Shown: positions 2,470-61,213 of the stretch, in pieces
Layout of the letters: the number at the start of each line of letters is the position of its first letter
Position numbering within the stretch: position 1 is the first letter of the stretch
Assembly: GCA_022842285.1 (NCBI GenBank)
Contig: JALHPV010000004.1
Coordinates: 1 to 64,000 of the forward strand
Origin: Kofleriaceae bacterium
GTDB taxonomy: Bacteria > Myxococcota_A > Polyangia > Haliangiales > Haliangiaceae
Direction: 5' to 3'
Length of the DNA stretch: 64,000 nt
The notes under the pieces: generated by a model
What the model was told of the DNA's origin: nothing
Database searches by the model: none
What the model saw: only the letters and a program-made list of their open reading frames with translations
Translations under genes and position numbers: made by a program

Positions 2470-3855
2470 ATGGAGCACCGCCCGCGCGCGCTACACGTGT
2501 GTCACCATCGCCAAGCTTTGCTGCGCTGGCCAGGCAACGCCCTCCACGTCCTGTGGCTCACGCTCGTCCTGATCGTGAGCGGTCTGGTCTACGGACTCGC
2601 ACGCCTGGGCATCGCCCTCTTCGTGTGGGGGGCCCGCCGGCCCCGCGCCCTCGCCCACCTGCGCGGGTTCTTCCTGCGCCACACGATGACGACCCTCGGC
2701 GCGACGTTCATCAAGCTCGGCCAGGTCATGTCGACCCGCCCGGACCTGTTCGCGCCTCAGATCATCGACCAGCTCCGCCATCTTCAGGACAAGCTGCCGC
2801 CGTTCGCGTTCGCGAAGGTGAAGCAAACGGTCGAGGAGGACCTCGGCAAGCCGCTGACCGAGCTGTTCGCCTCCTTCGACGAGCGGCCCGTCGCCGCCGC
2901 GTCGGTGGCGCAGGTCCACCGGGCCACGCTCAAGGACGGACGCGAGGTCGCGGTCAAGGTCTTGCGCCCCGGGGTACGGCGGCAGGTCGAACGCGACCGC
3001 ACGATCCTCCTGGCCGGCGCGCGCCTCGGGAACATCCGGGCCTCGTGGAAGGCGAACGACCCGGTCGGCCATACCAAGCACTTCGTCGACGCCATCCACG
3101 ACCAGACCGACCTGCGCATCGAGGCGGCGAACTACACCCGCTTCCGCGAGAACTTTGCGAGTGTCCCCGAGGTCAACTTCCCCGAGGTGTACGGCGACCT
3201 CTCGACGGAGCGCGTGCTCGTCATGGAGTTCGTCCGCGGCACCAAGGTCGACGCCCTGCCCGCCGATTACCCGCCCGCAAAGAAAGCCGGGGTCGCGAAG
3301 GCGCTGCGCATGGCGATGTTCCGCATGTGCTTCGAGAACGGCTTCGTCCATGCCGACCTCCACCCCGGCAACATGGTGGTGCGTGACGACGGCACGCTTG
3401 TCATCTTCGATGCCGGTCTCGCGAAGCTCCTGTCCGATGACGTCCTCATCCAGTTCATCGACATGACGAAGTGCCTCGCGATGGGCACCCCCGATGACCT
3501 GGTGGCGCACCTGAAGCGTTTCCACAAGTACGTCGGCGAGATCGACTGGGAGACCCTCCGGGCCGAGGTCTCGGTGTTCTCGCAGAAGTTCCGCAGCAAG
3601 GACGTCTCGAAGCTCGAGTACGGCGAGCTCATCGGCGAGATGTTCGCCATCGGCCGGAAGTACAAGGTCCGTCCGGTGACGGACATGATGCTCGTCTTCG
3701 TCGCGCTCATCACGGCTCAGGGCATCGGCAAGATGCTGGAGCCGGAGCACAACGTCTTCGCCGCAGTGGCGATGTACCTGATGCCGATCCTGATGCGCCG
3801 CAACGAGCACATCCCCGATACGGCCGAGGCCAAGCGCGCCGTCGCGGTTAGCTGA
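2470..3855 (+). CDS. ABC1/UbiB-family atypical protein kinase-like ATPase
   Basis: 461 residues. A predicted membrane helix (~25-52) precedes the family hallmark KxGQ motif in FIKLGQVMSTRPDL. The kinase-like core follows: the Ala-rich nucleotide loop AAASVAQVHRA, the lysine of EVAVKVLRP, the catalytic loop HADLHPGNMV, and the metal-binding Asp in IFDAGLAKL, where canonical kinases have DFG. Members such as UbiB/Coq8 support ubiquinone biosynthesis or lipid homeostasis at the membrane and act as ATPases. At 461 residues it is shorter than E. coli UbiB (~546). The second membrane region near the C-terminus (MMLVFVALI and VAMYLMPIL) is weak. No ubiquinone gene is adjacent, so the substrate is unknown. 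It is divergent from the hybrid kinase and convergent with the desaturase. Confidence 0.9.
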   Translation: MEHRPRALHVCHHRQALLRWPGNALHVLWLTLVLIVSGLVYGLARLGIALFVWGARRPRALAHLRGFFLRHTMTTLGATFIKLGQVMSTRPDLFAPQIIDQLRHLQDKLPPFAFAKVKQTVEEDLGKPLTELFASFDERPVAAASVAQVHRATLKDGREVAVKVLRPGVRRQVERDRTILLAGARLGNIRASWKANDPVGHTKHFVDAIHDQTDLRIEAANYTRFRENFASVPEVNFPEVYGDLSTERVLVMEFVRGTKVDALPADYPPAKKAGVAKALRMAMFRMCFENGFVHADLHPGNMVVRDDGTLVIFDAGLAKLLSDDVLIQFIDMTKCLAMGTPDDLVAHLKRFHKYVGEIDWETLRAEVSVFSQKFRSKDVSKLEYGELIGEMFAIGRKYKVRPVTDMMLVFVALITAQGIGKMLEPEHNVFAAVAMYLMPILMRRNEHIPDTAEAKRAVAVS

Positions 3856-3864
3856 GCGTCGGCG

Positions 3865-5028
3865 CTAGGCGGCTTCGCCGACGGGGGTGCCCTCGAGAAC
3901 GGGCTCCTCGCCGACGAGACCGGCCCGCACCGCCATCGGCGAGACCGCATCCCGCTGCCACGCCGTCGCCATGAAGCGAGCGGAGTCGACGAGCGCGTCG
4001 AGATACGGCTCCTGCTTGTAGGGCACGCCGTGCTTCTTGCACCACGCGGCCGTGATCTCCTGCGCGCGCGGGAGGTTCAGGTGCGTGATCTTCGGGAACA
4101 GGTGGTGCTCGACCTGGTAGTCGAGGCCGATGAAGAAGTAGCTGACGAACTTCGGCATCGCGAGGTCGCGCGTGGTGTCGACCTGGTGCATCCAGTCGTG
4201 GTTCTGCTCGTTCAGGATCGGCAGGCCGACGTGCGCCGGCAGGAAGATGAGGGCGAGGAACACGCCGCTGATCGCCCAGATGCTCGAGTAGAGCGCGAAG
4301 CCAACGAGCGGGCCAAAGACGATCGAGGGGAGCACGATGCCGACCGTGTAGTGCACGATCTGGCAGCCGAGGTCCGCCCACCACATCTTGTCGTAGCCGT
4401 GCTTCTGCGGGTGGATCTTGAAGAGGTGCACGAGGCTCGCCTTGCGCATGCCGAGCGAGAGGAGCGTCGTCGCCGGCCAGAACGCCCACGACTGGAACGT
4501 GCGCTGGATCCACTTCTCGGCCGCCGAGCTGTCGTCGTGGCCCTTCTTCGTGGACGCGAACGGGAACGGACGGATGTCCGGATCGACGTTCTCGACGTTC
4601 GGGTGACCGTGGTGCAGGCGGTCGTGCTTCTCGCGCCAGTAGAGCGCGCCGAGGCCGGAGAACAGGGGGAACGTGAGGAACTGGATGAGGACGTTCCGCT
4701 TGGGGTTGGCCGAGAAGCTCTTGTGCGAGCCCTCGTGACCGAACATCGCGATCGCCGTGGTGAAGACGGCCGCGACGGGGATGCAGACCAGGGAGGCCCA
4801 CGGGCCGAAGTACCAGAGCGCCACCAGCGAGGCGGTCAGCCCCACGGCCAGGAACACCAGCTTCAGCCAGTTGGACGCCTCTCTCGATTCGAAGACGCCG
4901 GCAAGGCGAAGCTCCGCGCGCAGGGAGGACAGCTCGGGGGGGCGGTTCATCGTGGCCACAGTGGCTTGTACTGTGAGGTTTTCGCTAGTTCCGGTTGTCA
5001 CGGTTTCACCAGAACGGCCTTCGCCCAT
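3865..5028 (-). CDS. Membrane fatty acid desaturase (DesA-like)
   Basis: 387 residues. The three histidine clusters of the integral-membrane di-iron desaturases are present in order: HEGSH, HDRLHHGHPN and QVEHHLFP, with an extra histidine-containing HDWMH. Paired hydrophobic segments before HEGSH and between the second and third clusters give the usual four-helix membrane arrangement. The enzyme would introduce a double bond into an acyl chain of membrane lipids, using O2 and an electron donor (ferredoxin or cytochrome b5 type) not encoded nearby. The annotated start at 5028 leaves a ~25-residue Thr/Gly-rich N-terminus; ATG at 4950 (MNRPPELSSL) is an equally plausible start because no clear ribosome-binding site marks either. 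Position of desaturation cannot be told from sequence. Confidence 0.9.
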   Translation of the reverse strand: MGEGRSGETVTTGTSENLTVQATVATMNRPPELSSLRAELRLAGVFESREASNWLKLVFLAVGLTASLVALWYFGPWASLVCIPVAAVFTTAIAMFGHEGSHKSFSANPKRNVLIQFLTFPLFSGLGALYWREKHDRLHHGHPNVENVDPDIRPFPFASTKKGHDDSSAAEKWIQRTFQSWAFWPATTLLSLGMRKASLVHLFKIHPQKHGYDKMWWADLGCQIVHYTVGIVLPSIVFGPLVGFALYSSIWAISGVFLALIFLPAHVGLPILNEQNHDWMHQVDTTRDLAMPKFVSYFFIGLDYQVEHHLFPKITHLNLPRAQEITAAWCKKHGVPYKQEPYLDALVDSARFMATAWQRDAVSPMAVRAGLVGEEPVLEGTPVGEAA

Positions 5029-5216: not shown

Positions 5217-7583
5217 ATGCCGACGCCGACGTCCAAGCCTGCGGAGCACCCCCTCTGGTCCAATCCGCAAGCGCGGCCGATTCGCGTCCTCGTCATCGAC
5301 GACGACCCGCTCCAGCTGAGGGCGCTGCAGCGTCAGCTCCGCGACCACGCCGAGATCGAGCTGATCATCTGCGACAACCCGCTCGAGGGCATGCTCGCGG
5401 TCGGCGCGGCCAAGCCGGACCTCGTGATCATGGACGTCTTCATGCCGGACCTCGACGGCACCGAGGCCTGTCGCCAGATCAAGGCGAACCCGGGCACCAA
5501 GGATGTCGAGGTCGTGCTGACGAGCGCGGCGATGACCCCGGAGATCGAGCTCGCGGCGCAGGATGTTGGCGCGCGCTGGGCCGTCTCGAAGCCGCTGGAC
5601 GTCGCCAAGCTCGTCACCCGGATGGGCGGCATCGTCGTCGGCCCCGAGCCGACCCCGCTCCGCGCCGAGATCGCGGTGCACGGGGCGCCCCTCGCGGCTG
5701 CGCCCGTTGCGCCCGCCCCCGCCGGGCGCTTGGCTCGTGGCACGACGGCCCCCGCCCTGGTCGAGCAGATGGCGGCGCTCGCTCCCCAGACCGCCAAGCA
5801 CCTACCACCTCCGGTCGCGCCCGGTGCGCCGGTGGCACCGACGCTGCGCGGCGCCGATGTCCTCGTGCAGATGCTCGCCGAGGCCGGGGTCGAGGTGGTC
5901 TTCGGACTCCCCGGCGGGGCCATCTCTCCCGTTCACGATGCGCTGATGGACAGCAAGATCCGCCACGTGACCACGCGCCACGAGTCGGGGGCCATGTTCG
6001 CGGCCGCGGCCTACGCCCGTCAGACCGGCAAGCTCGGCGTTGTCGCCGTGACGTCGGGTCCCGGCGTCCTCAACGCGATGACCGGCCTCGCCTCGGCCTG
6101 GTGCGATGGTCTCCCTGTCCTGCTCCTCGTCGGCGAGGTGCCTCGCAACGCGCAGGGCAAGGGCGTCCTGCAAGACGGCTCGGCGCACGGCCTCCAGATC
6201 GTGGAGATGGCGCGCCACGTCGCCAAGCTGGCGATCGAGGTCCCGAGCCCGACCGCCCTCCCTCACCTCGTGCGCCGCGCGATCGTCACGGCCCAGTCAG
6301 GACGCCGTGGTCCGGTGCTGATGACGCTGCCGATGGACATCTCCACGGCCAAGGTCAGCATGCCGAAGACATCCGGCTCGATCGCGCTCGACGCCCTCGT
6401 CGATGCGGCGCTGATCGACGAGATCGCCGAGCTCATGATCGGCGCCGACCGCCCTCTGATCCTCGCCGGTAGCGGCGTTCGTGGCGACGGTGCGCCCGAG
6501 AAGCTCCGCAAGGTAGCCGAGCAGCTCGGCTGCCCGGTCGCGACGACGCCCAAGGGCAAGGGCGTCTTTCCCGACGACCACGCGCTCGCCCTCGGCGTCC
6601 TGGGTATGGGCGGTCACCCGTCGGCGCGCGACTACGTCGCGGGCGGCCTCGATGTCGTGATCGCCATCGGCACCAGCCTCGGTGACCTCGCGACCGATGG
6701 CTTCTCGCCGAAGCTCCAGGGCTCGAAGGCCCTCGTTCATATCGACATCGACGCCCGCCAGCACGGCAAGAGCTACGCGCCGACCCACGCCGTCGTCGCC
6801 TCTGCGGCTGACTTGCTCGGGGCTCTCGCCGAGCGCCTCGAGGAGCGGTCGGTCCGCCACGCATCGTCGCGCAGCGCCACCCTCGGTACGATCAACCGTC
6901 CCCGCATCTCGTCCGCGACGAGCATGCGGCCGCTGCGCCACGGCCTCTCATATCACCCGATTCCGTCGTCGACGAAGACCGGCTTCATCGCCCCGCAGGA
7001 CGCGCTCGCCGAGCTGCAAGCCCTCGCGCCGACCGACGCCGTCTACACCGTCGACTCGGGCGATCACTTCCTGTTCGCGGTGCACTTCCTCCGCGTCACG
7101 CAGCCGGATCAGTTCCTCGTGATGACGGGCCTCGGCTCGATGGGCCAGTCGATCGGCGCGGCCCTCGGCTGCCAGCTCGCCGACCCGGATCGATTCGTCG
7201 CCGCGATCTGCGGTGATGGGTGCTTCGCGATGGCCGCCTTCGAGATCGCGACCGCCGTGCAGGAGGGCTTGCCCATCCGCGTGCTCGTCTTCAACGACGA
7301 ACGCCTGGGCATGGTCGAGAACGGCCACTCCCACGTCTACGGTCGCAAGGCGAGCTACTCCACCACGGGCCTCGACGTCTGCGCCGTCGCGCGCGGCCTC
7401 GGCGCAGCCACCATGCGCGTCGACGGAGCCGGACAGCTCGCGGCCGCCGCCGAGTTCATGCGCACCACCCCCGGTCCGGTCGTCGTCGACGTCCGCATCG
7501 ATCCGGCGATCAGCCTGCCGCGCAAGGACCGGATCGCGACCACAGCTCCGACGGCTGTCCGGAAGCCGGACCTCGCCAACTAG
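5217..7583 (+). CDS. Response-regulator receiver fused to a ThDP-dependent enzyme (acetolactate-synthase-like)
   Basis: 788 residues combining two families rarely joined. Residues ~20-145 are a CheY-like receiver: acidic pair IDDDP, acceptor Asp73 in IMDVFMPDLDG, and the conserved Lys in VSKPLD. A Pro/Ala-rich linker (~150-205) follows. From ~208 the protein reads as a three-domain thiamine-diphosphate enzyme of the acetolactate synthase/benzoylformate decarboxylase family: GADVLVQMLAEAG, the cofactor-activating Glu256 in TRHESGAMFA, TSGPGVLNAM, a middle domain with LILAGSGV and GTSLGD, and the ThDP/Mg-binding motif starting GDG (666-668) and reaching Asn693 in FNDERLG. All expected cofactor residues are present, so it should be catalytically competent. 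Which 2-oxo acid it uses is unknown. It is monocistronic, between divergent and convergent neighbours. Confidence 0.85.
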   Translation: MPTPTSKPAEHPLWSNPQARPIRVLVIDDDPLQLRALQRQLRDHAEIELIICDNPLEGMLAVGAAKPDLVIMDVFMPDLDGTEACRQIKANPGTKDVEVVLTSAAMTPEIELAAQDVGARWAVSKPLDVAKLVTRMGGIVVGPEPTPLRAEIAVHGAPLAAAPVAPAPAGRLARGTTAPALVEQMAALAPQTAKHLPPPVAPGAPVAPTLRGADVLVQMLAEAGVEVVFGLPGGAISPVHDALMDSKIRHVTTRHESGAMFAAAAYARQTGKLGVVAVTSGPGVLNAMTGLASAWCDGLPVLLLVGEVPRNAQGKGVLQDGSAHGLQIVEMARHVAKLAIEVPSPTALPHLVRRAIVTAQSGRRGPVLMTLPMDISTAKVSMPKTSGSIALDALVDAALIDEIAELMIGADRPLILAGSGVRGDGAPEKLRKVAEQLGCPVATTPKGKGVFPDDHALALGVLGMGGHPSARDYVAGGLDVVIAIGTSLGDLATDGFSPKLQGSKALVHIDIDARQHGKSYAPTHAVVASAADLLGALAERLEERSVRHASSRSATLGTINRPRISSATSMRPLRHGLSYHPIPSSTKTGFIAPQDALAELQALAPTDAVYTVDSGDHFLFAVHFLRVTQPDQFLVMTGLGSMGQSIGAALGCQLADPDRFVAAICGDGCFAMAAFEIATAVQEGLPIRVLVFNDERLGMVENGHSHVYGRKASYSTTGLDVCAVARGLGAATMRVDGAGQLAAAAEFMRTTPGPVVVDVRIDPAISLPRKDRIATTAPTAVRKPDLAN

Positions 7584-8417: not shown

Positions 8418-9476
8418 GTGAGCGGCATTGGCGTACTCGGGCTCGGGCTGGCGCTGCCACCCGAGGTTCGCGACAATCGGTGGTGGCCGGACGACCTGGT
8501 CGCGACATGGAAGCCTCCCTTCTCGACGCAGCCACCGAGCTTCGAGCTCAGCGCGGCCGGGCGCGACATCGTCGCCGTGATGCGCAGCAGCGCGGCCGAT
8601 CCGTTCCAAGGCGTGCAGCGACGTCACGTGCTCGCACCTGACGCGTCGCTCCTCGAGCTCGAGGCGACCGCCGCGCACGAGGCGCTGGCCGACGCCGGGC
8701 TAACCCGCGAAGACATCGACGTGCTGTTGCTCTATCGCGCGCCCGTCGAGCATCAACTCACGAACATCGCGTGCGAGCTCCACGCGCGCCTCGGCCTGCC
8801 TCGACGTTGCTTCTCCCTGCAAACGGAAGGCGCCCAGCACGCCTTTCTGCTCCAGCTCGATCTCGCGCGTGCGCTGATCGCCAGCGGTCAGGCGCGCCGG
8901 GCATTGCTGGTGCAGTCGAGCGGAATCTCGCGCGTGCTCGACCCGAAGTCCTCGCTCTCCACCGCGTTCGGGGATGGCGCGACGGCGACGGTCGTGGGAG
9001 CCGTCAGCGCGGGGCGCGGGGTCCTGGGGACATCCCATCAGACAGATGGCGAACACCCGAACGCGCTTGTCGCGACCACGCAGGGTGGGCGCTGGTACGA
9101 CGCGGGCGCCAGCTACCTACAGATTCGCGATCCGGTCGGGATGCGGGACTCGCTCTTGAAGACCGTCGACGTGACTTGCGAAGGAATCTTCGCCGCGTGC
9201 GCCACCGCAGGGGTTCGCCCCGCCGAGATCGACGTGTTCGTCATGCATCAAGGGATGGCCTGGCTACGCAAGCTGGTGCAAACACACGCCGGTCTGGCCA
9301 ACGCCCAGAGCCTTGATACGATCGCCGACACTGGCCATCTATTCGGAGCGTTCCTGCCCTCGACGCTCGTACTGGCTCAACGAGCGGCCATGTTGGACGA
9401 TGAACGTCTCGTGCTTCTTGCAGGCGGTGGTACCGGGATGACGTTTGGCGCCGCCGTCATTCGCTGGGGACGGTGA
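8418..9476 (+). CDS. Ketosynthase-III-like protein (FabH superfamily) lacking the catalytic Cys
   Basis: 352 residues with the thiolase fold of 3-oxoacyl-ACP synthase III: GIGVLGLGLALPP at the N-terminus, an Asp-rich strand DIDVLLLYRAP, a nucleophile-elbow region near 130-150, FGDGATATVVG, and GGGTGMTFGAAV at the end. By hand alignment to FabH, the position of the nucleophilic Cys is occupied by Gln140 (TEGAQHAF). The catalytic His is kept (His277 in FVMHQGM), and the Asn of FabH is replaced by His in DTGHLFGAF. Replacement of Cys by Gln is known from KSQ domains of polyketide synthases, which decarboxylate malonyl groups instead of condensing, so decarboxylation or a non-enzymatic binding role is possible. 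Its TGA overlaps the ATG of the next sensor-kinase gene (TGATG), implying translational coupling. Confidence 0.75.
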   Translation: MSGIGVLGLGLALPPEVRDNRWWPDDLVATWKPPFSTQPPSFELSAAGRDIVAVMRSSAADPFQGVQRRHVLAPDASLLELEATAAHEALADAGLTREDIDVLLLYRAPVEHQLTNIACELHARLGLPRRCFSLQTEGAQHAFLLQLDLARALIASGQARRALLVQSSGISRVLDPKSSLSTAFGDGATATVVGAVSAGRGVLGTSHQTDGEHPNALVATTQGGRWYDAGASYLQIRDPVGMRDSLLKTVDVTCEGIFAACATAGVRPAEIDVFVMHQGMAWLRKLVQTHAGLANAQSLDTIADTGHLFGAFLPSTLVLAQRAAMLDDERLVLLAGGGTGMTFGAAVIRWGR

Positions 9477-12472
9477 TGTCCGAGGTCTCCTGCAAAGTGT
9501 TCGATACCTTCTGGGAGGCGTTGGCCATGAAGGGCGTCGACCGCGCGACCTTGGTCGAACACACGAACGTCGAGTTCAAAACGATCCTCGACAAGAAGGC
9601 GCGCCTTTCCTGGTCAGACTTCTGCGCCGTGATGCACAACATCCGGCCGCACTTCACAGACGGGGAGTACATCGAACTCGGTCGCGCGTATCTCCATGCG
9701 CCCGGACTCCGCTTCGCGATGGTCATCGCGCGTCTCGCGATGGCGCCGATGGATTTCTACCGCTGGTTCTCGAAGCCCGACAACGGTGTCGGCAATCAGA
9801 TGTTCGCGTGCATCACGCCATCACATCGCGAGCTGGCGCCGTACGACATCGAGCTGGACCTGGTTCTGCCGGAGGGGTACGAGGTCCTCTGGGACTTCTA
9901 TCTGATCTCGCAGGGCAACATGGAAGAAATGTCCGTCCTGCTCGGCTACCAGCGGGCTGAGGTTGCGCTCACGCGCATCCCACACGGTGGCCGCATGCGG
10001 ATCAAGGTGCCACAGGGCGCCAAGCTTTACCGCCGAGCGCTGCGGTTCCTCGCGAAGCCGTTCGTCCGCCGGGATGCAGCGAAGGAGTTGCGCTCCGCCC
10101 ACGAAGAGCTGCTTGGCAGGTATCACGAGCTCGAGAGCGCGCAGATGAAGCTCGACCGCCAGGCGGTCCATCTCCAGACCGCACACCGCATCAACGAGCT
10201 CGCGCAGGGCGCGACGAGTCTCGAGGCCACGCTCGCGGCGATCCTGGCGGCCCTTGTCGATGGCAGTGGGTTCGCCTGGGCGCGGATCACGTTAGTCCGG
10301 GCTCCCACCCAGGAGTTCACGAGCGCAGCGCGACCTCAAGGAGTCGAGATCGTGCGGCCGTTGCTCGCGCGAGAAGGCGAGACCATCGGCGAGGTCGCGG
10401 TCATCGCACACGCGAACGTCAGCTTCGCGGAAGCCCTCCTCGACTTCGTCTGTCCGACAATCGCCATCACCCTCGAGAACGTCCTCTACCGCACCCAGCT
10501 CGAATCGCGGGTTGCGGAGCGCACGGCCGAGCTCTCGCTCGCTCACGACCAGCTCTCCGCGACGGTCGTGGACCTCAAGGAAGCGCAGGGCGTCCGCGAG
10601 CGGTTCTTCGGCAACATCTCGCACGAGATCCGGACGCCGCTCTCGCTGATCCTGCTCGCGACGGCCGATGTCGAAAAGCGCACCGGGCCCAATCTGGATG
10701 CGCGGTCGCGTGAGGGTCTCGCGTCCGTGAGCGATTCGGCACGCAAGCTCGTGCGCCTCGTCGACGAGCTGCTGCTCCTGGCGGCCGCGCAGGAAGACCA
10801 GCTTGGAACCAAGCCCGAGCCGACGGACCTCGCCACGCTCTGCACGCGCCTCGCCGACTCGTGGCGGCTCGCCGCGGAGTCGCACGGGCAGACGCTCAAC
10901 GCGAGCATCCCCGGGCTCCTCGTGGCGAACGTCGATCCAGTGCAGATGGAGCGCGTGATCACGAACCTCGTATCGAACGCGATCAAGTACAACTCGCCCG
11001 GGGGGGCAGTGCTCCTCGAGGTCTCGGACCTGGAGTCCGGCATCCGGATCTCGGTGTTCGACACCGGGCCTGGCATCGACGAGGAGCTCTCGAACCGGTT
11101 GTTCGGGCGCTTCGAGCGCTCGGCCGGCGAGGCGAGCAAGAAACAGGGGACCGGGCTCGGACTCAACCTGTCCAAGCAGATCATCGAAGCCCATGGCGGC
11201 ACGATCCAGGCGCTCCCCCGGTCGGGTGGTGGCGCCGAGCTCCGGGTCGACCTGCCGCCTTCGGTTCGCTTGAGCGACACCGCGGCTCCGAGCATCAAGC
11301 GCTCCACGATGGTCGCCCGGGTCACGGACCTGATCCCGACCGTCCCCGTGGCCTCGCGTAAGGTCGAGGCCCAGGGCGTCTCGGAGGGCACGATCCTCCT
11401 CGCCGAGGACGATGTCCGTCTCGCCAGTGCGATCGCGGACCTGCTCTCCGAGAGCTATACGGTCATCGTCGCGCATGACGGAGCCACCGCGCTCGAGCTA
11501 GCGAAGACGCACAAGCCGCAGCTCCTCGTCACCGACGTCGAGATGCCGGGCCTCTCTGGCATCGAGCTGGCACGCGCCTTTCGCGGGATCCAGCAGGACA
11601 CCGCGGCTCCTGTGGTCATCCTCTCCGCGGTGATGGACCTCCGGACCCGCGTCGAAGGCCTCGATGCGGGCGCCGTCGACTACGTGACCAAGCCGTTCGA
11701 TCCATTGGAGCTCAAAGCACGTGTACGGGCCCAGTTCCGCTTGCGCGATCTCGGGACCCGCCTTCACCGTGCCGAGCAGGTCGCCACGCTGGGCTTCCTG
11801 ACGACCGGACTCGCCCACGAGCTGCGCAACCCGGCCAACGGGATCGTCAACGCCATCGAACCGATCCTCATGCTCCTTCCGGACGAGTTGAAGGAACCTG
11901 ACCACCCCATCGCCCAGCTCGTGAGTGCCGTCTCCGAATCGGCGGAGCAAATCCGATTCCTGGCGCGGCAACTGCTGGGCTTCAAGCGTGCCGATGCGAC
12001 CGTGGATATGGCCCCCGCGCCGCTCCGGTCGATCATCGACCGTGCGCTCAGCCTGGCGTCGACGGCGTTTGCGGAGGTCGAAGCCCGCGTCGAGGTCGGT
12101 CAGGACGCCCTGGTGCGTTGTTCAGCACCCTTGCTCACCCAGGTGTTTACCAACCTGCTGGAAAATGCTGCCCACGCTGCAGGGCCGGGGGGCTGGGTAG
12201 CGGTCCGGCTCCAGGAGGCAGGTGGGCGCATGACCGTCGAGGTAACCGATAGTGGGCCGGGCGTCCCCGCTGACCTGCGCACGCGCGTCTTCGAGCCCTT
12301 CTTCACGACGAAACCAGCAGGTGTTGGCAACGGGCTCGGACTACCGCTGTCTCGGGACATCGTCATGCGACATGGAGGTGTCCTAGAGATTCGCGGTGAC
12401 GGACAGAATGCCGCATTCGTCGTCGAGCTGCCCGGTGTGATTACTTCTGTGGCTTGCGCGAACGCGGTATGA
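9476..12472 (+). CDS. Large double histidine kinase: sensor-HisKA-HATPase-REC-HisKA-HATPase
   Basis: 998 residues, no membrane helix. Residues 1-~200 form an N-terminal domain I do not recognise with confidence (GVDRATLVEHT, FCAVMHNIRPHFTDGEY, FYRWFSKP), followed by a coiled coil and a GAF-like region (~235-340). A first kinase has His383 in ISHEIRTPL and ATP motifs NLVSNAIKYN, DTGPGID and GTGLGLNLS. A receiver follows (Asp687 in TDVEMPGLSG, Lys in KPFDP). A second kinase core has His781 in LAHELRNPA and motifs LLENAAHAA, DSGPGVP and GNGLGLPLS. This is a complete phosphorelay-type chain in one protein. ATG 9476 overlaps the ketosynthase-like stop by one base; a GTG three bases earlier is also possible. 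It probably forms an operon with the receiver-kinase gene 37 bases downstream. Confidence 0.88.
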   Translation: MSEVSCKVFDTFWEALAMKGVDRATLVEHTNVEFKTILDKKARLSWSDFCAVMHNIRPHFTDGEYIELGRAYLHAPGLRFAMVIARLAMAPMDFYRWFSKPDNGVGNQMFACITPSHRELAPYDIELDLVLPEGYEVLWDFYLISQGNMEEMSVLLGYQRAEVALTRIPHGGRMRIKVPQGAKLYRRALRFLAKPFVRRDAAKELRSAHEELLGRYHELESAQMKLDRQAVHLQTAHRINELAQGATSLEATLAAILAALVDGSGFAWARITLVRAPTQEFTSAARPQGVEIVRPLLAREGETIGEVAVIAHANVSFAEALLDFVCPTIAITLENVLYRTQLESRVAERTAELSLAHDQLSATVVDLKEAQGVRERFFGNISHEIRTPLSLILLATADVEKRTGPNLDARSREGLASVSDSARKLVRLVDELLLLAAAQEDQLGTKPEPTDLATLCTRLADSWRLAAESHGQTLNASIPGLLVANVDPVQMERVITNLVSNAIKYNSPGGAVLLEVSDLESGIRISVFDTGPGIDEELSNRLFGRFERSAGEASKKQGTGLGLNLSKQIIEAHGGTIQALPRSGGGAELRVDLPPSVRLSDTAAPSIKRSTMVARVTDLIPTVPVASRKVEAQGVSEGTILLAEDDVRLASAIADLLSESYTVIVAHDGATALELAKTHKPQLLVTDVEMPGLSGIELARAFRGIQQDTAAPVVILSAVMDLRTRVEGLDAGAVDYVTKPFDPLELKARVRAQFRLRDLGTRLHRAEQVATLGFLTTGLAHELRNPANGIVNAIEPILMLLPDELKEPDHPIAQLVSAVSESAEQIRFLARQLLGFKRADATVDMAPAPLRSIIDRALSLASTAFAEVEARVEVGQDALVRCSAPLLTQVFTNLLENAAHAAGPGGWVAVRLQEAGGRMTVEVTDSGPGVPADLRTRVFEPFFTTKPAGVGNGLGLPLSRDIVMRHGGVLEIRGDGQNAAFVVELPGVITSVACANAV

Positions 12473-52939: not shown

Positions 52940-55900
52940 GTGCTCAACGCCCGAGGCGTCGGCGCGGCGATCACCCTAACATCGGTCTATCCGAAGAACC
53001 CTAGTGATAGTGCTCAACGCCCGAAGGCATCGGCGCGGCGGTCACTGGACATCGCGTCGCTGCCGAAGCTGCCGCCGCGCGTGTGCTCAACGCCCGAAGG
53101 CATCGGCGCGGCGATCACGTGTCGCTACCCGGTCGCCGTCCAGTACATGGACGGGTGCTCAACGCCCGAAGGCATCGGCGCGGCGATCACGTGAAAAGGT
53201 CAGGACCCCGGGCCTCTCGGCGCTGCGTGCTCAACGCCCGAAGGCATCGGCGCGGCGATCACACACGGACGCGAGCGACACCGCGATGCCGCCGTCGTGG
53301 GCCACGTGCTCAACGCCCGAAGGCATCGGCGCGGCGAGCACGACCATGAGTGCCCGTCGTGCGGCGAGTCGGTGTTCGAGTGCTCAACGCCCGAAGGCAT
53401 CGGCGCGGCGATCACGCGCTGGCGCTGATGGACGCGGAGGAGTGGTCGGACAAGTGCTCAACGCCCGAAGGCATCGGCGCGGCGATCACACGAGCGTCGA
53501 GACGACGGGCGATCAGGGCTACCGGTGCTCAACGCCCGAAGGCATCGGCGCGGCGATCACGCGACGGGTCAAGATCGACCTCGAAGAGCATCGAGTGCTC
53601 AACGCCCGAAGGCATCGGCGCGGCGATCACTCGAGCTCCCTGAGCCACGGCATCCGCGCCGGTGTTGTGCTCAACGCCCGAAGGCATCGGCGCGGCGATC
53701 ACCCCTGGCCTTCGCGGCCGCATCCCGCAGCGCATCGGCGTGCTCAACGCCCGAAGGCATCGGCGCGGCGATCACATTTCGCGAGTTGACCGCAGCCCGC
53801 CTTTCCCCAGTGCTCAACGCCCGAAGGCATCGGCGCGGCGATCACGCTCTGTCCTCGCGTGTGCGCTCACGGTCACCGTTGGTGCTCAACGCCCGAAGGC
53901 ATCGGCGCGGCGATCACGCGGCGAGCCGATCAATCGCCCTCGTGAGCGTCGGGTGCTCAACGCCCGAAGGCATCGGCGCGGCGATCACCTTCTCGGCGGG
54001 GACGAAGGATGTCTTCTGTTCCTTGTGCTCAACGCCCGAAGGCATCGGCGCGGCGATCACCGCGTGGGCGACGAGACGATCGAGACCGCATGGTCGGGGT
54101 GCTCAACGCCCGAAGGCATCGGCGCGGCGATCACTGCGAGCGGGCGAAGCCCGAGCCGCCATCTGCAGGGTGCTCAACGCCCGAAGGCATCGGCGCGGCG
54201 ATCACGCTTGCGTTCTGCGGGCTCGGGTGACGTGGGCTGCGTGTGCTCAACGCCCGAAGGCATCGGCGCGGCGATCACTGGCCGGCAGCGACGCCGAGCC
54301 GGACGAGAACGGGTGCTCAACGCCCGAAGGCATCGGCGCGGCGATCACCCGAGGACGTGGAGCATGCGGCTCGTGAAGAGCGTGTGCTCAACGCCCGAAG
54401 GCATCGGCGCGGCGATCACCTCGACACGGGCGCGCTGGCGACGGCGAACCGCTAGTGCTCAACGCCCGAAGGCATCGGCGCGGCGATCACCCTAGCTCGA
54501 CCCACTCTCTCTTCTTGTCGTCGTCGTGCTCAACGCCCGAAGGCATCGGCGCGGCGATCACCCTGCGTGGTCAGCAGCGCGTCGACATGTGCTCTTCCCA
54601 GTGCTCAACGCCCGAAGGCATCGGCGCGGCGATCACCTGGGCAAATCTCTGCGCCGCCTGGCCCGCGGCGCGTGTGGTGCTCAACGCCCGAAGGCATCGG
54701 CGCGGCGATCACCCTCGTGTGTACACCGGCAATTCCGCCGTCACGAGTGCTCAACGCCCGAAGGCATCGGCGCGGCGATCACGTCGGGCGCGTGCTGCGG
54801 CCGTCGCCGGGCAAGACGTGCTCAACGCCCGAAGGCATCGGCGCGGCGATCACATCGCGCTCCTAGTCGCGTGCGGGGCGCCCCAGCAGTGCTCAACGCC
54901 CGAAGGCATCGGCGCGGCGATCACCAGCTTCGACAGGGATGAGAGGCGTAGCGCCCTCGTGCTCAACGCCCGAAGGCATCGGCGCGGCGATCACACCGTA
55001 TGCCAGGAGCTCGTCGCGAGCATTTCTCCTGTGCTCAACGCCCGAAGGCATCGGCGCGGCGATCACCATGACTCCCCCGCTGCCAGCCGGCGCAGTTCCA
55101 TCGTGCTCAACGCCCGAAGGCATCGGCGCGGCGATCACGCGGGCTACCCGGGGTGACAGATGCCAAGCGTCAGCGTGCTCAACGCCCGAAGGCATCGGCG
55201 CGGCGATCACCCATACACCGACGGGGCGTAGTTGGTGTCAACATCGTGCTCAACGCCCGAAGGCATCGGCGCGGCGATCACCTGCGCGAACGATGGCGCG
55301 CCCGTTGTAGATCGCCGGTGCTCAACGCCCGAAGGCATCGGCGCGGCGATCACCCATCCCCGCGCGGGACCCGGCGGTCTACCGTGAGTGCTCAACGCCC
55401 GAAGGCATCGGCGCGGCGATCACACACGCATCGACAGCGTCACTGTCGAGCAGTTCCGCTGGTGCTCAACGCCCGAAGGCATCGGCGCGGCGATCACTCC
55501 GGCAGGGATTCGACGCGCATTTGTTGACGCAGTGCTCAACGCCCGAAGGCATCGGCGCGGCGATCACAGCTCGAGGCCGCCGAGGAGTTGCCGAACTACC
55601 TCGTGCTCAACGCCCGAAGGCATCGGCGCGGCGATCACTCACCCGCTGCACATGCCGCGCGCTTTCGACTCCCACGTGCTCAACGCCCGAAGGCATCGGC
55701 GCGGCGATCACTGGCCACCACTCGAGTTCGTCACGTCTTCGATACGTGCTCAACGCCCGAAGGCATCGGCGCGGCGATCACGTCGCAAACATGCTGGTTC
55801 TCCCGCGTGTGAAGCGGTGCTCAACGCCCGAAGGCATCGGCGCGGCGATCACAGCCGGCGGCGGCTTGGCGAGCCACCTGGCCGTGCTGTGCTCAACGCC

Positions 55901-57439
55901 CGAAGGCATCGGCGCGGCGATCACTAGACTAACTGTTCGCATGGCCCACCACATGCACGTGCTCAACGCCCGAAGGCATCGGCGCGGCGATCACACGCGG
56001 ACCGTCACCAGCCCGCTGTAGTTCGCCTGGTGCTCAACGCCCGAAGGCATCGGCGCGGCGATCACGTAGTCCGTGTCGAGCAACCCGCCGCCGTCGTTGA
56101 CGTGCTCAACGCCCGAAGGCATCGGCGCGGCGATCACAAGCTGTCGGCCGCCGCGCTCGGTGCGGGCCCAGGGTGCTCAACGCCCGAAGGCATCGGCGCG
56201 GCGATCACGCTCGCGGCGCAGCTGCTCGGTGTCGAGGTTCGCCGTGCTCAACGCCCGAAGGCATCGGCGCGGCGATCACGTTTCCAGCTCGCCACCTCGT
56301 ACAGGTTCGGGTCACGGTGCTCAACGCCCGAAGGCATCGGCGCGGCGATCACGCACCGGACGCCCCGACACCTTGTACTTCAGGCGCAGCACGTGCTCAA
56401 CGCCCGAAGGCATCGGCGCGGCGATCACTGAAGAACCAACCGAAGTGGCGCATCTTCGACTTCTGGTGCTCAACGCCCGAAGGCATCGGCGCGGCGATCA
56501 CCAAGTCAGCGGGGCGTGGGAGACTCGCGACAGGAGTGCTCAACGCCCGAAGGCATCGGCGCGGCGATCACGCAAGCCTCGCGGCAAGTCGATGATGAAC
56601 ATCCTCTGGTGCTCAACGCCCGAAGGCATCGGCGCGGCGATCACCGGATGAAGATGAGGCACGCGTCGGCGTACTCCGCGTGCTCAACGCCCGAAGGCAT
56701 CGGCGCGGCGATCACTCGCCCAGGGCCGCGCGGGTTCCGCGCGCGCTCGGTGCTCAACGCCCGAAGGCATCGGCGCGGCGATCACTCGGAAATCCTGCCA
56801 ACGAAAATGCCAAAACACGGCGTGCTCAACGCCCGAAGGCATCGGCGCGGCGATCACGCACGTAAATCGACCCCTCGCGAAAACGCCGCGAATCTGTGCT
56901 CAACGCCCGAAGGCATCGGCGCGGCGATCACTGCGCTCCTCGGCAAGCTGGGGGGACGCGTCCGACAAGTGCTCAACGCCCGAAGGCATCGGCGCGGCGA
57001 TCACCCGGCGGAGACGTCGAGCGCGCGCCGGACGGTACCGTGCTCAACGCCCGAAGGCATCGGCGCGGCGATCACGAGCCCGAAGTGCCAGTGGACGAGG
57101 CCGTAGCGGACGTGCTCAACGCCCGAAGGCATCGGCGCGGCGATCACGAGATCAGCGCGGGCTTACAGACGCCGTCCTTGCAGCCGTGCTCAACGCCCGA
57201 AGGCATCGGCGCGGCGATCACCTAAGAAGCGCCTCGAAGAGCACATGGCAGCGAAGCGGTGCTCAACGCCCGAAGGCATCGGCGCGGCGATCACGACCGA
57301 AATCGAGGGCTTTCTGCTCGGGATTCGCGGTGTGCTCAACGCCCGAAGGCATCGGCGCGGCGATCACCTTCTCGGGCTGGCTCGACGGGGGACGCAGCGA
57401 CGGGTGCTCAACGCCCGAAGGCATCGGCGCGGCGATCAC
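52940..57439 (-). CRISPR. CRISPR array: 63 repeats of 36 bp, 62 spacers of 34-43 bp
   Basis: On the plus strand each repeat begins GTGCTCAACG and ends GCGGCGATCAC; 60 of the 63 are identical by eye. The exceptions are the first (52940-52974, 35 bp, degenerate), the second (53010-53045, ends GGTCAC) and the sixth (53306-53341, ends GAGCAC), all near the left end. Degenerate repeats at the left, plus a half-repeat before it, show that the leader is at the right, next to cas2. The array is therefore transcribed on the minus strand, like the cas genes. In that sense the repeat contains ATGCC-TTCG-GGCGT, a 5-bp stem with a UUCG loop, followed by TGAGCAC, which suits a Cas6/Cas5-type cut leaving a 7-8 base 5' handle. 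One spacer (R5 to R6) is 43 bases. Confidence 0.98.
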
Positions 57440-57584
57440 AGCCTCGACCTCAAACATCTAGAATCGCATACCTTTTTGGGGTGCTCGACCTGTACGTCCA
57501 TCATCGTACTCCTGTCCTAGGCCAGCGCTCACGAGGACGGTCCACAAGCTGTTGTTCCGGCGTCACTTTCAGTCATACATGGAC
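57440..57584 (-). promoter_or_regulatory. CRISPR leader between cas2 and the array
   Basis: The 145 bases between the last repeat (57439) and the end of cas2 (57585) hold no coding frame and are richer in A+T than the flanks (for example CCTTTTTGGGG and CATACCTTTTTG at 57470-57482). In array orientation this region is immediately upstream of the first (leader-proximal) repeat, as expected of a leader that drives array transcription and guides integration. No clean -35/-10 could be fixed by eye. Confidence 0.6.
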
Positions 57585-57989
57585 CTATTCGGTTGTCACA
57601 TCGGTGTGTTCATCAGGAACTCCGGGCGCTTCGGCGCATTCGTCCTGGTCTACCGCCTCAACATCCGCCGGTGCATGACTGGCACGAGGGGGTGACCCGA
57701 TGACACGGAAGGTCGCAGGCTGTTCCTGCCAACCTTCCACATGATTCCTCGATATCACATTCCTCGCGCAGCTCGGGCAGAGATCCACGATCAACAGCGC
57801 GTCGTCCGGGGCCATGACCTGGGCCAGCTCCCAGCGGAGCTGCTCGACCTCGAGGTTGTCGAGGCGACACCGGAACACCGAGTACTGGACGCGTCGACCG
57901 CGTCCACGGGCGATCTTGTAGACCTTACGCCAGCGGGCCGGCTCGCGGATGTCGTAGCAAACCAGCCGCCAGCGCTTATCAACCGCCAT
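57585..57989 (-). CDS. cas2: CRISPR-associated endonuclease Cas2, with C-terminal extension
   Basis: 134 residues from ATG 57989, which shares one base with the stop of cas4-cas1 (TGATG); longer starts inside cas1 are rejected. The Cas2 fold begins RWRLVCYDIREPARWRKVYKIARGRGRRVQYSVF (quoted only in part): the first strand carries Asp10-type acidic residue in CYDI, and VQYSVFRC is the second conserved strand. ALLIVDLCPSC follows. Cas2 is usually 85-100 residues; here the last ~40 (GSPPRASHAPADVEAVDQDEC...) form an acidic Pro/Glu/Asp-rich tail with no clear family. Cas2 dimerises with Cas1 for spacer integration. Its stop is 145 bases before the array. Confidence 0.93.
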   Translation of the reverse strand: MAVDKRWRLVCYDIREPARWRKVYKIARGRGRRVQYSVFRCRLDNLEVEQLRWELAQVMAPDDALLIVDLCPSCARNVISRNHVEGWQEQPATFRVIGSPPRASHAPADVEAVDQDECAEAPGVPDEHTDVTTE

Positions 57990-59413
57990 CAGCGCAACCG
58001 CAGCCGCGCGAAGAGCCCGCCCTCGTTCATCCACTCCTTCTCGAGCAACCGCACCTCGAGCTCGATGAGCCGAGCGTAGCTCAGCGAGTAGCCGAGTACG
58101 TTGTGGCGCCACACGTCTGCTTTGCGACGCTCGAGCACCTCGATGACCTTTCTTCTGCCGTCCTCGCCAAGCAGGACGCGCCCCGGCAATTCATCGAAGT
58201 CCGCTTGCGGATCGAACGTACGCCGGTTCAGCGCTGCCACGACGGCCATATCGACGACCGGCACGCGAAACAGCTCCATGAGGTCGAGCGCCAGCGTGTG
58301 CGCCGATGATCGTGGCCGGTGGTAGAAGCCGAACCCCGGGTGCAGGCCCACCGCGATCACGGCTTGCAGCACCTCCCGGTACAGCATGCCGTACGCGTAG
58401 CTCAGGATCGCGTTCACCCGGTCGCGCGGAGGCTGCCGGCTCCGTCCGAGGAACTGGAACGCTGGGTCAAGATCGTCCACGAGAAGGTATGGGAGCGCCG
58501 CGAAGTACGCGGCCGCTCCTGTGCCTTCGTGCCCGAGCAGCGTCGCAGAGGAGTCCGCGTGAGCAGCCCGCCGCAGCGCGTTGCGCATCTGCTCGGTTGC
58601 GCGCTCTAGCTCTTCAGCCCGCCCTCCGTCGCCTCGGGTTGCACGCAGCACGAAGCGCAACTGCGCCTCGAGCTTCGCGACCACGAGTCGGCGTGCGAGT
58701 CCAAGCGCGAACTCGGGTGCATCCAGGGCACGGAACTGCCGGATGTGACGCTGTGCGGTTGCAGCCGCAGGAGCGAGTGAGCCGATCAGCTCGCCGCCAA
58801 AGCTGGTCCAGTGCACGCCGATCTCCCGCGACGCGCAGAATCTCAACGCCTGTGTGGTGATCTGCGCGTACCCATGCAGCACCACCTGCCCTACTTCAAC
58901 GATGGGTAGCCGGATGTCGGGGTTCTCCCGGCCCTTGACGAGGAGCTGGTCGCCCGACCTCCCCACCTGTGCCCCGTTCTCCATGACGTGCAACGTCTGG
59001 CCGCGCGCATGCTCCGGCAGCAGCCGCAACGGTGGTAGCTCGTCTGTCTCCGGGTCGAACCGCGCTTCCTCTGGCAGGCATACTGGCGCGAGGGAACAAC
59101 GAGGGCAGAGCCGATCGTTTGACGTCACGGGCGGCCGCTCGATAGCCTCTCGAAGTTGGCGTCCGCGCTCGATCACCGTCCGCACCGCTGCTCGGAGCTC
59201 GTCATCCACCGGCACGCGAACGGTGATGGAGTCAGCGTGGTACCGGACTCGCCCTTCGGGCACCTGGCGACCGTGGGCCTCTTCGATCAACATGGCGTAC
59301 GCAGCGACCTGGATCCGGTCTGTCTGCCAGGCCTCGCGCGCTCCCGCGACCCCGGCCGAGCGGCCGCGCTTGTGCTCGTACGGGATCAGCGCACCGCTGC
59401 GGAGTCGAAGCAC
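57989..59413 (-). CDS. cas1: Cas1 integrase with the C-terminal part of Cas4 (downstream part of interrupted cas4-cas1 fusion)
   Basis: 474 residues if translation restarts at GTG 59413. The first ~115 residues are the rear part of Cas4: YEHKRG (the RecB EhK motif), QVAAY (QhxxY), and three Fe-S cysteines in LCPRCSLAPVC. The rest is Cas1: the Glu region LLGHEGTGAAAYF, His in GLHPGFGFYHR, and the acidic pair in LALDLMELFR, all of which fit the Cas1 metal-binding triad. The full fusion normally starts at GTG 59626, right after the cas5 stop, but an in-frame TGA at 59456-59458 splits it. Without that stop the protein would be ~545 residues. A G-rich stretch (CGGGGGG) lies 9 bases before GTG 59413, a possible restart site. 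Cas1 could then still function, with Cas4 defective. Confidence 0.85.
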   Translation of the reverse strand: MLRLRSGALIPYEHKRGRSAGVAGAREAWQTDRIQVAAYAMLIEEAHGRQVPEGRVRYHADSITVRVPVDDELRAAVRTVIERGRQLREAIERPPVTSNDRLCPRCSLAPVCLPEEARFDPETDELPPLRLLPEHARGQTLHVMENGAQVGRSGDQLLVKGRENPDIRLPIVEVGQVVLHGYAQITTQALRFCASREIGVHWTSFGGELIGSLAPAAATAQRHIRQFRALDAPEFALGLARRLVVAKLEAQLRFVLRATRGDGGRAEELERATEQMRNALRRAAHADSSATLLGHEGTGAAAYFAALPYLLVDDLDPAFQFLGRSRQPPRDRVNAILSYAYGMLYREVLQAVIAVGLHPGFGFYHRPRSSAHTLALDLMELFRVPVVDMAVVAALNRRTFDPQADFDELPGRVLLGEDGRRKVIEVLERRKADVWRHNVLGYSLSYARLIELEVRLLEKEWMNEGGLFARLRLR

Positions 59414-59455
59414 GTCAGCCGCCCCCCGAATACCGAGCGACTCGCTTTCGAACGT

Positions 59456-59626
59456 TCAGCGCTCCACGGACTCGCCGTCTTCCTGCGCCAGCTCGACGTG
59501 GAGACGTCGACCCGCAAAGACCGCGGCGTCAGCCAACCGGATCCGCTCGACTTCCTCGAGAAAGAACAACCGCTCGCAGTAAACCAGCGCATGAAGCGAC
59601 GCCACGCTCAGCAGCGGCGCGTCCAC
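59456..59626 (-). pseudogene. 5' part of cas4, ended by an in-frame TGA
   Basis: This frame starts at GTG 59626 directly after the cas5 TGA and reads 56 residues: [19 protein letters not shown] carries the first Fe-S cysteine (Cys17), then [10 protein letters not shown] the Cas4 His (His43). At codon 57 there is TGA (59456-59458) followed by TFESESLGIRG and Asp71, which continue the Cas4 sequence in the same frame. Both halves match the M. xanthus-type Cas4 region that I recall, so a base substitution, not a frameshift, best explains the break. It could also be a sequencing error. If real, the first cysteine and His needed for the Fe-S cluster and nuclease are separated from the rest. Confidence 0.8.
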
Positions 59627-60322
59627 TCAGGACACCGCCCGTTGCGGGCCCACCTTGACCCATGCGTCATGGCTCACGATCCCGAGCTGTCTCGGCGCGA
59701 ACAGAGGCGACTCGGTTCGGCTCGCGTCGCCGCGATCGATATTCGTCGTGAGCCTGGTCGTCTCTTGAACTGGATCGTGGCCCGTGACAGGCGCGTACCA
59801 GCGCGCCTGCACGTCATCGGGAGCGATCTCGATGGCATCGAACAGGAACTGATTGTCCCCGGCGAACGGAAGACCATAACGCGGCGTCTCGAGGCGCCCG
59901 GCGAGCCCTTCTGCCACACGCCGAATGACGCCCCCCTCCCCTCGCGCCGCGACCACGCATTCGACGTCGACGAGAACCTCTCGCCGGACGGGCGCGATCC
60001 AGTACTTGTTGCCGTGCGTACGCGCCTTGAACGCGTCCCCCGAGTTTCCGACCGGGTAGCTATGCAGCTGCTGGTAGAGCGTGGCCCGTTGCCCCGGCGA
60101 GATCAGGCCCACCGCGATCTCGAGGCTGGGCGCGTCGCTCCGGATCGGCGTCACCGGCTCCAACAACGAGCCCCGCGACTCGATCGCGGCAAGGTTGAGC
60201 ACGAGTCCCCACGCCGCCGAGTGCGGGATCACGGGGAACGTGCCGCGATAGACTCCTGCCTGCATCCAGCGCCAGGCGGCGAACGGCGCGGACAGGCGCA
60301 ACGTCACCGTTGCCAAGGTCAT
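59627..60322 (-). CDS. cas5: CRISPR-associated protein Cas5 (DevS/Cmx5 type)
   Basis: 231 residues. The N-terminus LRLSAPFAAWRWMQAGVYRGTFPVIPHSAAWGLV (in part) fits the RAMP-fold start of DevS/Cas5 proteins, and YRGTFPVIPHSA is typical of the M. xanthus type. ATG 60322 overlaps the cas7 stop by 4 bases (ATGA). Its TGA (59629-59627) is followed immediately by the GTG of cas4-cas1. Cas5 binds the 5' handle of the crRNA in the Cascade complex, and in some subtypes it also cleaves pre-crRNA. Since no cas6 is visible here, that possibility matters. Confidence 0.9.
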   Translation of the reverse strand: MTLATVTLRLSAPFAAWRWMQAGVYRGTFPVIPHSAAWGLVLNLAAIESRGSLLEPVTPIRSDAPSLEIAVGLISPGQRATLYQQLHSYPVGNSGDAFKARTHGNKYWIAPVRREVLVDVECVVAARGEGGVIRRVAEGLAGRLETPRYGLPFAGDNQFLFDAIEIAPDDVQARWYAPVTGHDPVQETTRLTTNIDRGDASRTESPLFAPRQLGIVSHDAWVKVGPQRAVS

Positions 60323-61197
60323 GCGTCGAGCCCGTCGTGCGCCAGCGTGCGAAGCGCCTCCTGAGGGTTGTCGAAGAACCGGACGCCCTCCTGGAGCAAA
60401 CGCTCTTTTTCCGCTCCAGCGAGCTCGCGCGCCAGCGCACCGGCGACCACGAACTCCTGGCCCGGCAGATCACCCTTCTTGATCCGAGCGAGCTCGGCGA
60501 ACCCTCCGTGGCGATCGAAGCCATAGCTGTCGAACCCACCGACCAGCGCCGGGGTGAGTCGCGCAACCAGGGAGCGCGGCGCCATCTCGAAGTAGCTCCG
60601 CGCGTGCCCTCCAGCAACGTTCGAGAGCTCGCCGATGGCGGAGAGAAGCGCCTTAGCCCACGGCTTCTTCGCCTTGCAGTCCTCGAAGCTGAGGGCGAAG
60701 GGATACTGGTAGGCAGTGTGCGAGACCTCGCGATGCAGAAGCGCGGAGGACGTCGAGTTCTTCCAGGGGCTATCGCCCGCGTTGAGCGGAGACTGGTGGA
60801 AGGTCGCGTCGAACCGGTATGGGTGAAGCGCGACCGCCATGTTCATGCGAAGCACGCTGTCGCGCTTCGCCGGACGCTTGAAGTTCCTCATCTCCTTGTT
60901 GTCGGCGACGAGATAGCCGAACAGGAAGTCATCGGCATACTTGTCTGCATCGGGATACTCCTTGAACTCGACGGCTAGCTGGTCTTCATTGAGCAGCCTC
61001 CGACGATTCATCGGCTGTTCGCGTAACGCGAGGATCTCTCGGAGAGCGTTGCGCATCGCTTCGGGACTCACGACGGCGTACTCGTGGTCGCCCTTCGTGA
61101 TCTTCTGGATCACGGTGCGATTCTCCTCACTCTCACCGCGATAGTTGCTGCTCGGGGCTGCGTTCGTCAGGATGCTACAGAACAGGTTCTTCAACAT
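60319..61197 (-). CDS. cas7: CRISPR-associated protein Cas7 (DevR/Cst2 type)
   Basis: 292 residues. The hallmark DevR start is LTNAAPSSNYRGESEENRT, followed by EYAVVSPEAMRNALREIL, the pattern of this RAMP-fold backbone subunit that polymerises along the crRNA spacer. Later parts include DDFLFGYLVAD and ARSYFEMAPRSLVARLTP. AAGGAG lies 7-8 bases before ATG 61197, a strong ribosome-binding site, which suits the high copy number of Cas7 in Cascade. It follows cas8 by 16 bases and overlaps cas5 by 4. In M. xanthus the equivalent devR is also needed for sporulation; whether that applies here cannot be seen. Confidence 0.92.
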   Translation of the reverse strand: MLKNLFCSILTNAAPSSNYRGESEENRTVIQKITKGDHEYAVVSPEAMRNALREILALREQPMNRRRLLNEDQLAVEFKEYPDADKYADDFLFGYLVADNKEMRNFKRPAKRDSVLRMNMAVALHPYRFDATFHQSPLNAGDSPWKNSTSSALLHREVSHTAYQYPFALSFEDCKAKKPWAKALLSAIGELSNVAGGHARSYFEMAPRSLVARLTPALVGGFDSYGFDRHGGFAELARIKKGDLPGQEFVVAGALARELAGAEKERLLQEGVRFFDNPQEALRTLAHDGLDA

Positions 61198-61213
61198 GGA
61201 GTCTCCTTGTCGG

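Follow-up and report, generated by a model that had tools for sequence, protein, structure and literature searches.

Response regulators with enzyme outputs are known, among them the CheB, GGDEF and EAL types. These regulators hold receiver and catalytic domain in one chain, as does the protein described here; however, their outputs are signalling enzymes, whereas the output of the present fusion is predicted to be a small-molecule carboligase dependent on thiamine diphosphate (ThDP). The alpha-hydroxyketone signalling of the Lqs/Cqs type offers another point of comparison, as it places hydroxyketone-type chemistry beside kinases and receivers, and the Lqs gene order sets the synthase beside dedicated kinases and receivers. 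The cluster around the fusion can be likened to this arrangement, although LqsA and CqsA are PLP enzymes and the cluster would use ThDP chemistry to make a putative signal. In the carbazole pathway, the ThDP enzymes CqsB3/NzsH are encoded together with the KAS III-like proteins CqsB1/NzsJ, and such clusters are reported from Sorangium as well (PMC7466098). Both that module and the present locus have a ThDP carboligase beside a KAS III-like protein. However, the carbazole KAS III-like homologues are reported to keep their catalytic residues (PMC7466098), whereas the nucleophilic Cys is lost in five of five fused-clade proteins. No CqsB2-like cyclase emerged in the present analysis, in which a single plausible ORF, at L039, was compared with PDB and Pfam.

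The window, that is, the whole stretch of 64,000 nucleotides analysed from a Kofleriaceae bacterium, carries the features collected in Table 1. By codon position, the G+C of the fusion frame is 0.73, 0.50 and 0.90, the pattern of a coding gene. The N-terminal part scores 70.3 bits against Pfam Response_reg (cut-off 30.2) and, with its Asp, acidic pair and Lys, can be assigned to the two-component receivers. Asp73, Lys125 with the Pro that comes after it, and the acidic pair are kept in all 21 receivers compared (nine fused, 12 stand-alone), with D or E alternating at positions 28 and 30 of the acidic residues at 28-30. All three TPP-enzyme domains score far over their Pfam cut-offs, and the enzyme alignment shows no variation at Glu256 and G666-D667-G668 and has N693 in 10 of 11 sequences. 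By these three domains, the catalytic Glu and the GDG...N motif, the protein would be a ThDP enzyme of the carboligase type. The preliminary description of this DNA had given the exact limits of the frame, had placed Asp73 correctly and had reported a receiver Lys, which is Lys125; the Pro/Ala linker and the full ThDP enzyme that it described, with Glu256, GDG (666-668) and Asn693, are all present.

Table 1. Features of the fusion gene and its surroundings, and related loci; coordinates refer to the window unless a locus is named
Feature	Coordinates	Strand	Basis
Fusion ORF, 788 aa	5217-7583	+	open frame without stop
Receiver domain, residues 24-135	5286..5621	+	Pfam Response_reg, phospho-site conservation
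Asp73 codon (fusion receiver)	5433-5435	+	
Lys125 codon (fusion receiver)	5589-5591	+	
Pro/Ala-rich linker, residues 136-210, length varies among relatives	5622..5846	+	alignment
ThDP enzyme: TPP_enzyme_N 211-320, _M 400-537, _C 613-759	5847..7493	+	Pfam
KAS III-like protein (352 aa), nucleophilic Cys replaced by Gln	8418..9476	+	Pfam ACP_syn_III, ACP_syn_III_C
Hybrid kinase HK-REC-HK: sensor (about residues 1-219), HK, receiver, second HK	9473..12472	+	domain scan, fold search
REC-HK protein, 401 aa	12510..13715	+	domain scan
ABC1-type kinase and fatty acid desaturase genes	2470-5028		
CRISPR array (62 repeat copies) and cas genes	52987-57700 and 57989-63999	-	
303-aa protein in locus L039	L039:4288-5196	-	
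Cys-less KAS III-like proteins, fused clade	window 8418-9476; L032, L033, L034, L037		
Split loci, Myxococcota or window's own class	L040, L041, L042, L046, L049, L050, L051, L158, L159, L160		
Split loci, Elusimicrobia MAGs	L053, L083		

Relatives of the enzyme were searched in 36 genomes, 16 of which belong to the same genus, the window's genome included. Nine of these 16 have the fusion, window counted: six as full-length ORFs (the window, L032, L033, L034, L035 and L039) and three cut by a contig end (L043, L044 and L045), in which the receiver still shares one open frame with the first part of the enzyme. Of the remaining seven, five are without a relative at 1e-30 and two have only a more distant one. 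The probability that the receiver and enzyme halves were joined by an assembly or frameshift error is negligible, and this explanation was ruled out because the same in-frame fusion recurs across nine genomes. The preliminary description had proposed a search for the same architecture and had named an assembly error, with no similar fusion elsewhere, as what would speak against its reading; the search finds the architecture again and the fusion stands. Further independent receiver-ThDP fusions were absent from the best 80 loci of the scan, and plasmid records gave no match at E 1e-80.

The top solved sequence relative of the enzyme half is BbmA, with 350.6 bits over residues 209-768, the next different protein being CsmA with 254.8. 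BbmA is also the best structural match of the enzyme-half model (35% identity, with a TM of 0.92 by target length). Its structures (PDB 8x3x, 8x3y and 8xod; a 584-aa chain) are titled ‘ThDP-dependent HKA synthase’, where HKA is taken here to stand for alpha-hydroxy-beta-keto acid, and the solved chain is without a receiver, unlike the window fusion. In the open-licence literature, no account of BbmA as an enzyme was found. These matches point to a place for the fusion enzyme among HKA-synthase-type carboligases paired with KAS III-like proteins. Because TIGR00118 is the top NCBIfam match, a regulated acetolactate synthase that serves the making of branched-chain amino acids was considered as well. 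However, the fusion reaches only 377 bits against a TIGR00118 cut-off of 538.35, and neither ilvC nor ilvN has a match in the window genome (96.65% complete), in searches whose controls were positive in 14/14 and 13/14 control genomes, respectively. Moreover, five of the nine fused genomes have a separate true synthase together with ilvC and ilvN, and four have none of the three. With the sub-cut-off score and the missing ilvC and ilvN, this assignment was rejected as very improbable. As a separate observation, the window genome has no ilvC, no ilvN and no acetolactate synthase over the cut-off, and the organism, like some others in its genus, is probably auxotrophic for branched-chain amino acids.

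On the fusion's strand, the window continues, after a divergent CAAX-protease gene, with the KAS III-like gene, the HK-REC-HK gene, which shares 4 bases with the KAS III gene, and the REC-HK gene. The KAS III gene occurs at five of the eight fused loci that extend past the enzyme on the side concerned, and in all five the nucleophilic Cys is gone (Gln, Ala, Gly, Ala and Gly). The Cys is also gone in L041, L051, L167 and L168 and is kept in the remaining 22 of 31 KAS III rows; most relatives from split loci retain it. The catalytic triad of KAS III (FabH) is Cys-His-Asn, and the window protein departs from it with Gln, His and His at the triad columns. From these residues, the partner would hardly act as an ordinary condensing enzyme, which leaves the chemistry of the pathway uncertain. 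Work on other ketosynthases indicates that a role in decarboxylation or binding is still possible without the Cys. In 20 further regions from a phylum search, among which L161 appears to repeat L052, a KAS III-like gene lies by the enzyme in 15 and an HTH-receiver gene in three; the enzyme-KAS III pairing is wider than the receiver link. This association points to a specialised small molecule as the likely product, and the O-methyltransferase or cytochrome P450 genes found near L032, L038, L051 and L083, and by eye near L041, fit a specialised metabolite. At L039, a 303-aa protein takes the usual place of KAS III between fusion and kinase. It has no Pfam and no significant PDB match, and its candidacy as a CqsB2-type cyclase was dropped for that reason.

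Eight fused loci have flanking sequence (the window, L032, L033, L034, L035, L037, L038 and L039). L037 was counted as fused with its other end, L044, in the same genome, and L038 likewise with L045. The HK-REC-HK kinase is present at all eight, the L032 copy being cut by the contig end, and at L035 and L038 it is without the sensor domain and lies on the other strand. The REC-HK protein is found at seven of the eight, as the L032 contig ends before it. At the split loci L040, L042, L049, L158, L159 and L160, this set of genes recurs in unchanged order. Two side observations concern the rest of the window. The ABC1-type kinase and fatty acid desaturase genes that adjoin the fusion were not among the matches listed for any of the 17 regions compared (limit E 1e-6). 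Far downstream, the CRISPR array is followed by type I-MYXAN matches to Cas1 (with a Cas4-like part), Cas5, Cas7/DevR, Cmx8 and a Cas3 helicase that runs off the window end.

Of 11 HK-REC-HK sensor domains scanned, 10 gave no Pfam hit and one a marginal hit to Arabinose_bd (6e-4). The structure model of this domain, built from three sequences only, has a mean pLDDT of 71.8 and falls below 50 at residues 79-113. Compared with H-NOX, the model gave a VIA Z of 11.3 with an rmsd of 3.5 over 161 residues and a Foldseek E of 6e-4. In the fold search, H-NOX and guanylate cyclase entries filled the first 37 rows and TRAPP/Bet3 entries came lower, and an H-NOX-like fold is predicted on this basis. The heme hallmarks of H-NOX are a YxSxR motif and a conserved proximal His. 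Among the 11 sensor domains, YxSxR was found in none, nor do all of them share a His; heme sensing, which the fold would fit, was set aside as its motifs are absent. A small hydrophobic molecule is the more likely ligand of the modelled domain, rather than heme.

In loci from outside the genus, a protein of its own, about 190-245 aa long, carries the receiver behind an N-terminal HTH; at 12 loci its gene is the immediate upstream neighbour of the enzyme gene (Table 1). The Pfam scan found the HTH_17 DNA-binding domain in three of three stand-alone regulators, and the same N-terminal sequence is visible in all 12 aligned stand-alone proteins. These regulators share with the fusion the receiver and its place upstream of the enzyme; the fusion is without HTH_17. 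At the Elusimicrobia loci L053 and L083, no KAS III gene was found, and at L083 an O-methyltransferase gene follows the related ThDP enzyme gene. The HTH-receiver protein of L040 was used as query in 14 genomes at a limit of E 1e-20. Eight fused genomes match it once each, in the fused receiver only and from query residue 65-74, so the HTH half is missing; no separate HTH-receiver copy was found at E 1e-20 or better in these eight, the window's included. Neither the ninth fused genome (G014) nor G018 matched this query at the same limit. By sequence comparison, the fused receiver is that of the split loci minus the HTH.

The enzyme tree places this difference in a history. It has 44 rows, with L161 (taken as the contig of L052), L014 (the same as L046) and L043 (115 aa) omitted and L044 and L045 also on the leave-out list of the tree script, while L016 and L048, which are one gene, were both kept. 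The eight fused or cut rows form one clade (support 100/98), the receiver-less L036 is its sister (support 100/99), and the fused clade with L036 nests within a larger clade whose other members are mainly split loci. The simplest history is a single fusion event in which the HTH was lost, and an independent loss by which the L036 lineage gave up its receiver. Ancestrally, the enzyme gene was likely accompanied by a gene for a DNA-binding regulator, and at the split loci the stand-alone HTH-receiver presumably controls transcription.

Taken as a whole, the protein is best read as a response regulator with an HKA-synthase-type ThDP carboligase as output, in a pathway once controlled at transcription and now on the enzyme itself, a reading over which belief and doubt are evenly balanced. 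It builds on the observed anatomy, conservation, single fusion clade, absence of the HTH and gene company. A single event in the window's genus would have removed the HTH and fused the receiver with the enzyme. A small ligand would be bound by the HK-REC-HK kinase through its sensor domain, this kinase, the REC-HK protein or both would phosphorylate Asp73, and the receiver would then change the activity, assembly or docking of the carboligase. The split relatives suggest that the same signal formerly acted on transcription of the enzyme gene. What we infer in this scheme is the phosphotransfer and the direction in which it acts, the substrates and product, and a relation between that product and the kinase ligand. 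The preliminary description had proposed that a two-component pathway directly controls a 2-oxo acid reaction; the conserved receiver-ThDP fusion adjoining conserved histidine kinases supports this in part, and the enzyme assignment has moved to the HKA-synthase type, away from a branched-chain acetolactate synthase. The likely split ancestor and the accompanying kinase and KAS III genes are additions to that description.

Several observations count against the favoured reading. In the window, the enzyme and KAS III genes are separated by a divergent CAAX-protease gene, many enzyme-KAS III pairs of the phylum were found with no receiver next to them, and the KAS III-like partner is without its Cys. 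The linker, with a mean identity of 35% (nine pairs of full fused proteins), is long and variable, and in the full-fusion structure model the enzyme is good but the receiver and linker are poor, with pLDDT below 50 at residues 63-200, likely because the alignment has few receiver rows; therefore no allosteric contact is visible in the model, which is uninformative on docking. L036 has enzyme, KAS III gene and kinase and no receiver, so the receiver is dispensable there. The variable linker and L036 both speak against a tight allosteric machine, and both would suit a receiver that is a tether or phosphate acceptor, docking the enzyme on a kinase or draining phosphate with catalysis unchanged, as would the internal receivers of the adjoining conserved kinases. 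This is the main rival, possible though doubtful. Nothing specific stands against it, as the kept phospho-site fits both readings, but the conserved Lys125 and acidic pair favour a switching receiver, a sink being less probable.

It could also be supposed that the fusion is a passenger, a decayed HTH regulator whose receiver was joined by chance read-through and has no role. The absence of the receiver from L036 would agree with this, as would its mean identity of 56% against 70% for the enzyme in the six full fused proteins. However, the receiver is held at that level while the insert at 549-590 is down to 34%, and this rival is weaker than the tether or sink, and quite improbable, because Asp73, Lys125 and the acidic pair are kept in nine of nine fused receivers. 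The pN/pS values come from near-saturated sites and carry no weight as a selection test. The favoured response-regulator reading can be extended, in a rather unlikely form, to a closed circuit, in which the carboligase would make a hydroxyketone-type signal, a non-heme sensor of H-NOX/V4R fold would bind it, and phosphate passed to the receiver of the carboligase would tune synthesis. If this were true, synthase and response regulator would be one molecule.

The preliminary description knew of no described system with such a link between signalling and metabolism, and in the open-licence literature no description was found of a receiver-ThDP fusion or of a ThDP carboligase as response-regulator output, nor of the recurrent carboligase-KAS III-kinase cluster in myxobacteria-like bacteria. 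The fusion can be viewed as a natural record of how a regulator changed its output: what was a DNA-binding protein encoded next to the enzyme would now be an integral switch of that enzyme, through which a signal could reach it directly instead of by way of its gene. As the split form survives in relatives, direct post-translational control is testable by comparing fused with split proteins. In myxobacteria-like bacteria, the cluster marks a recurrent set of small-molecule enzymes and kinases.
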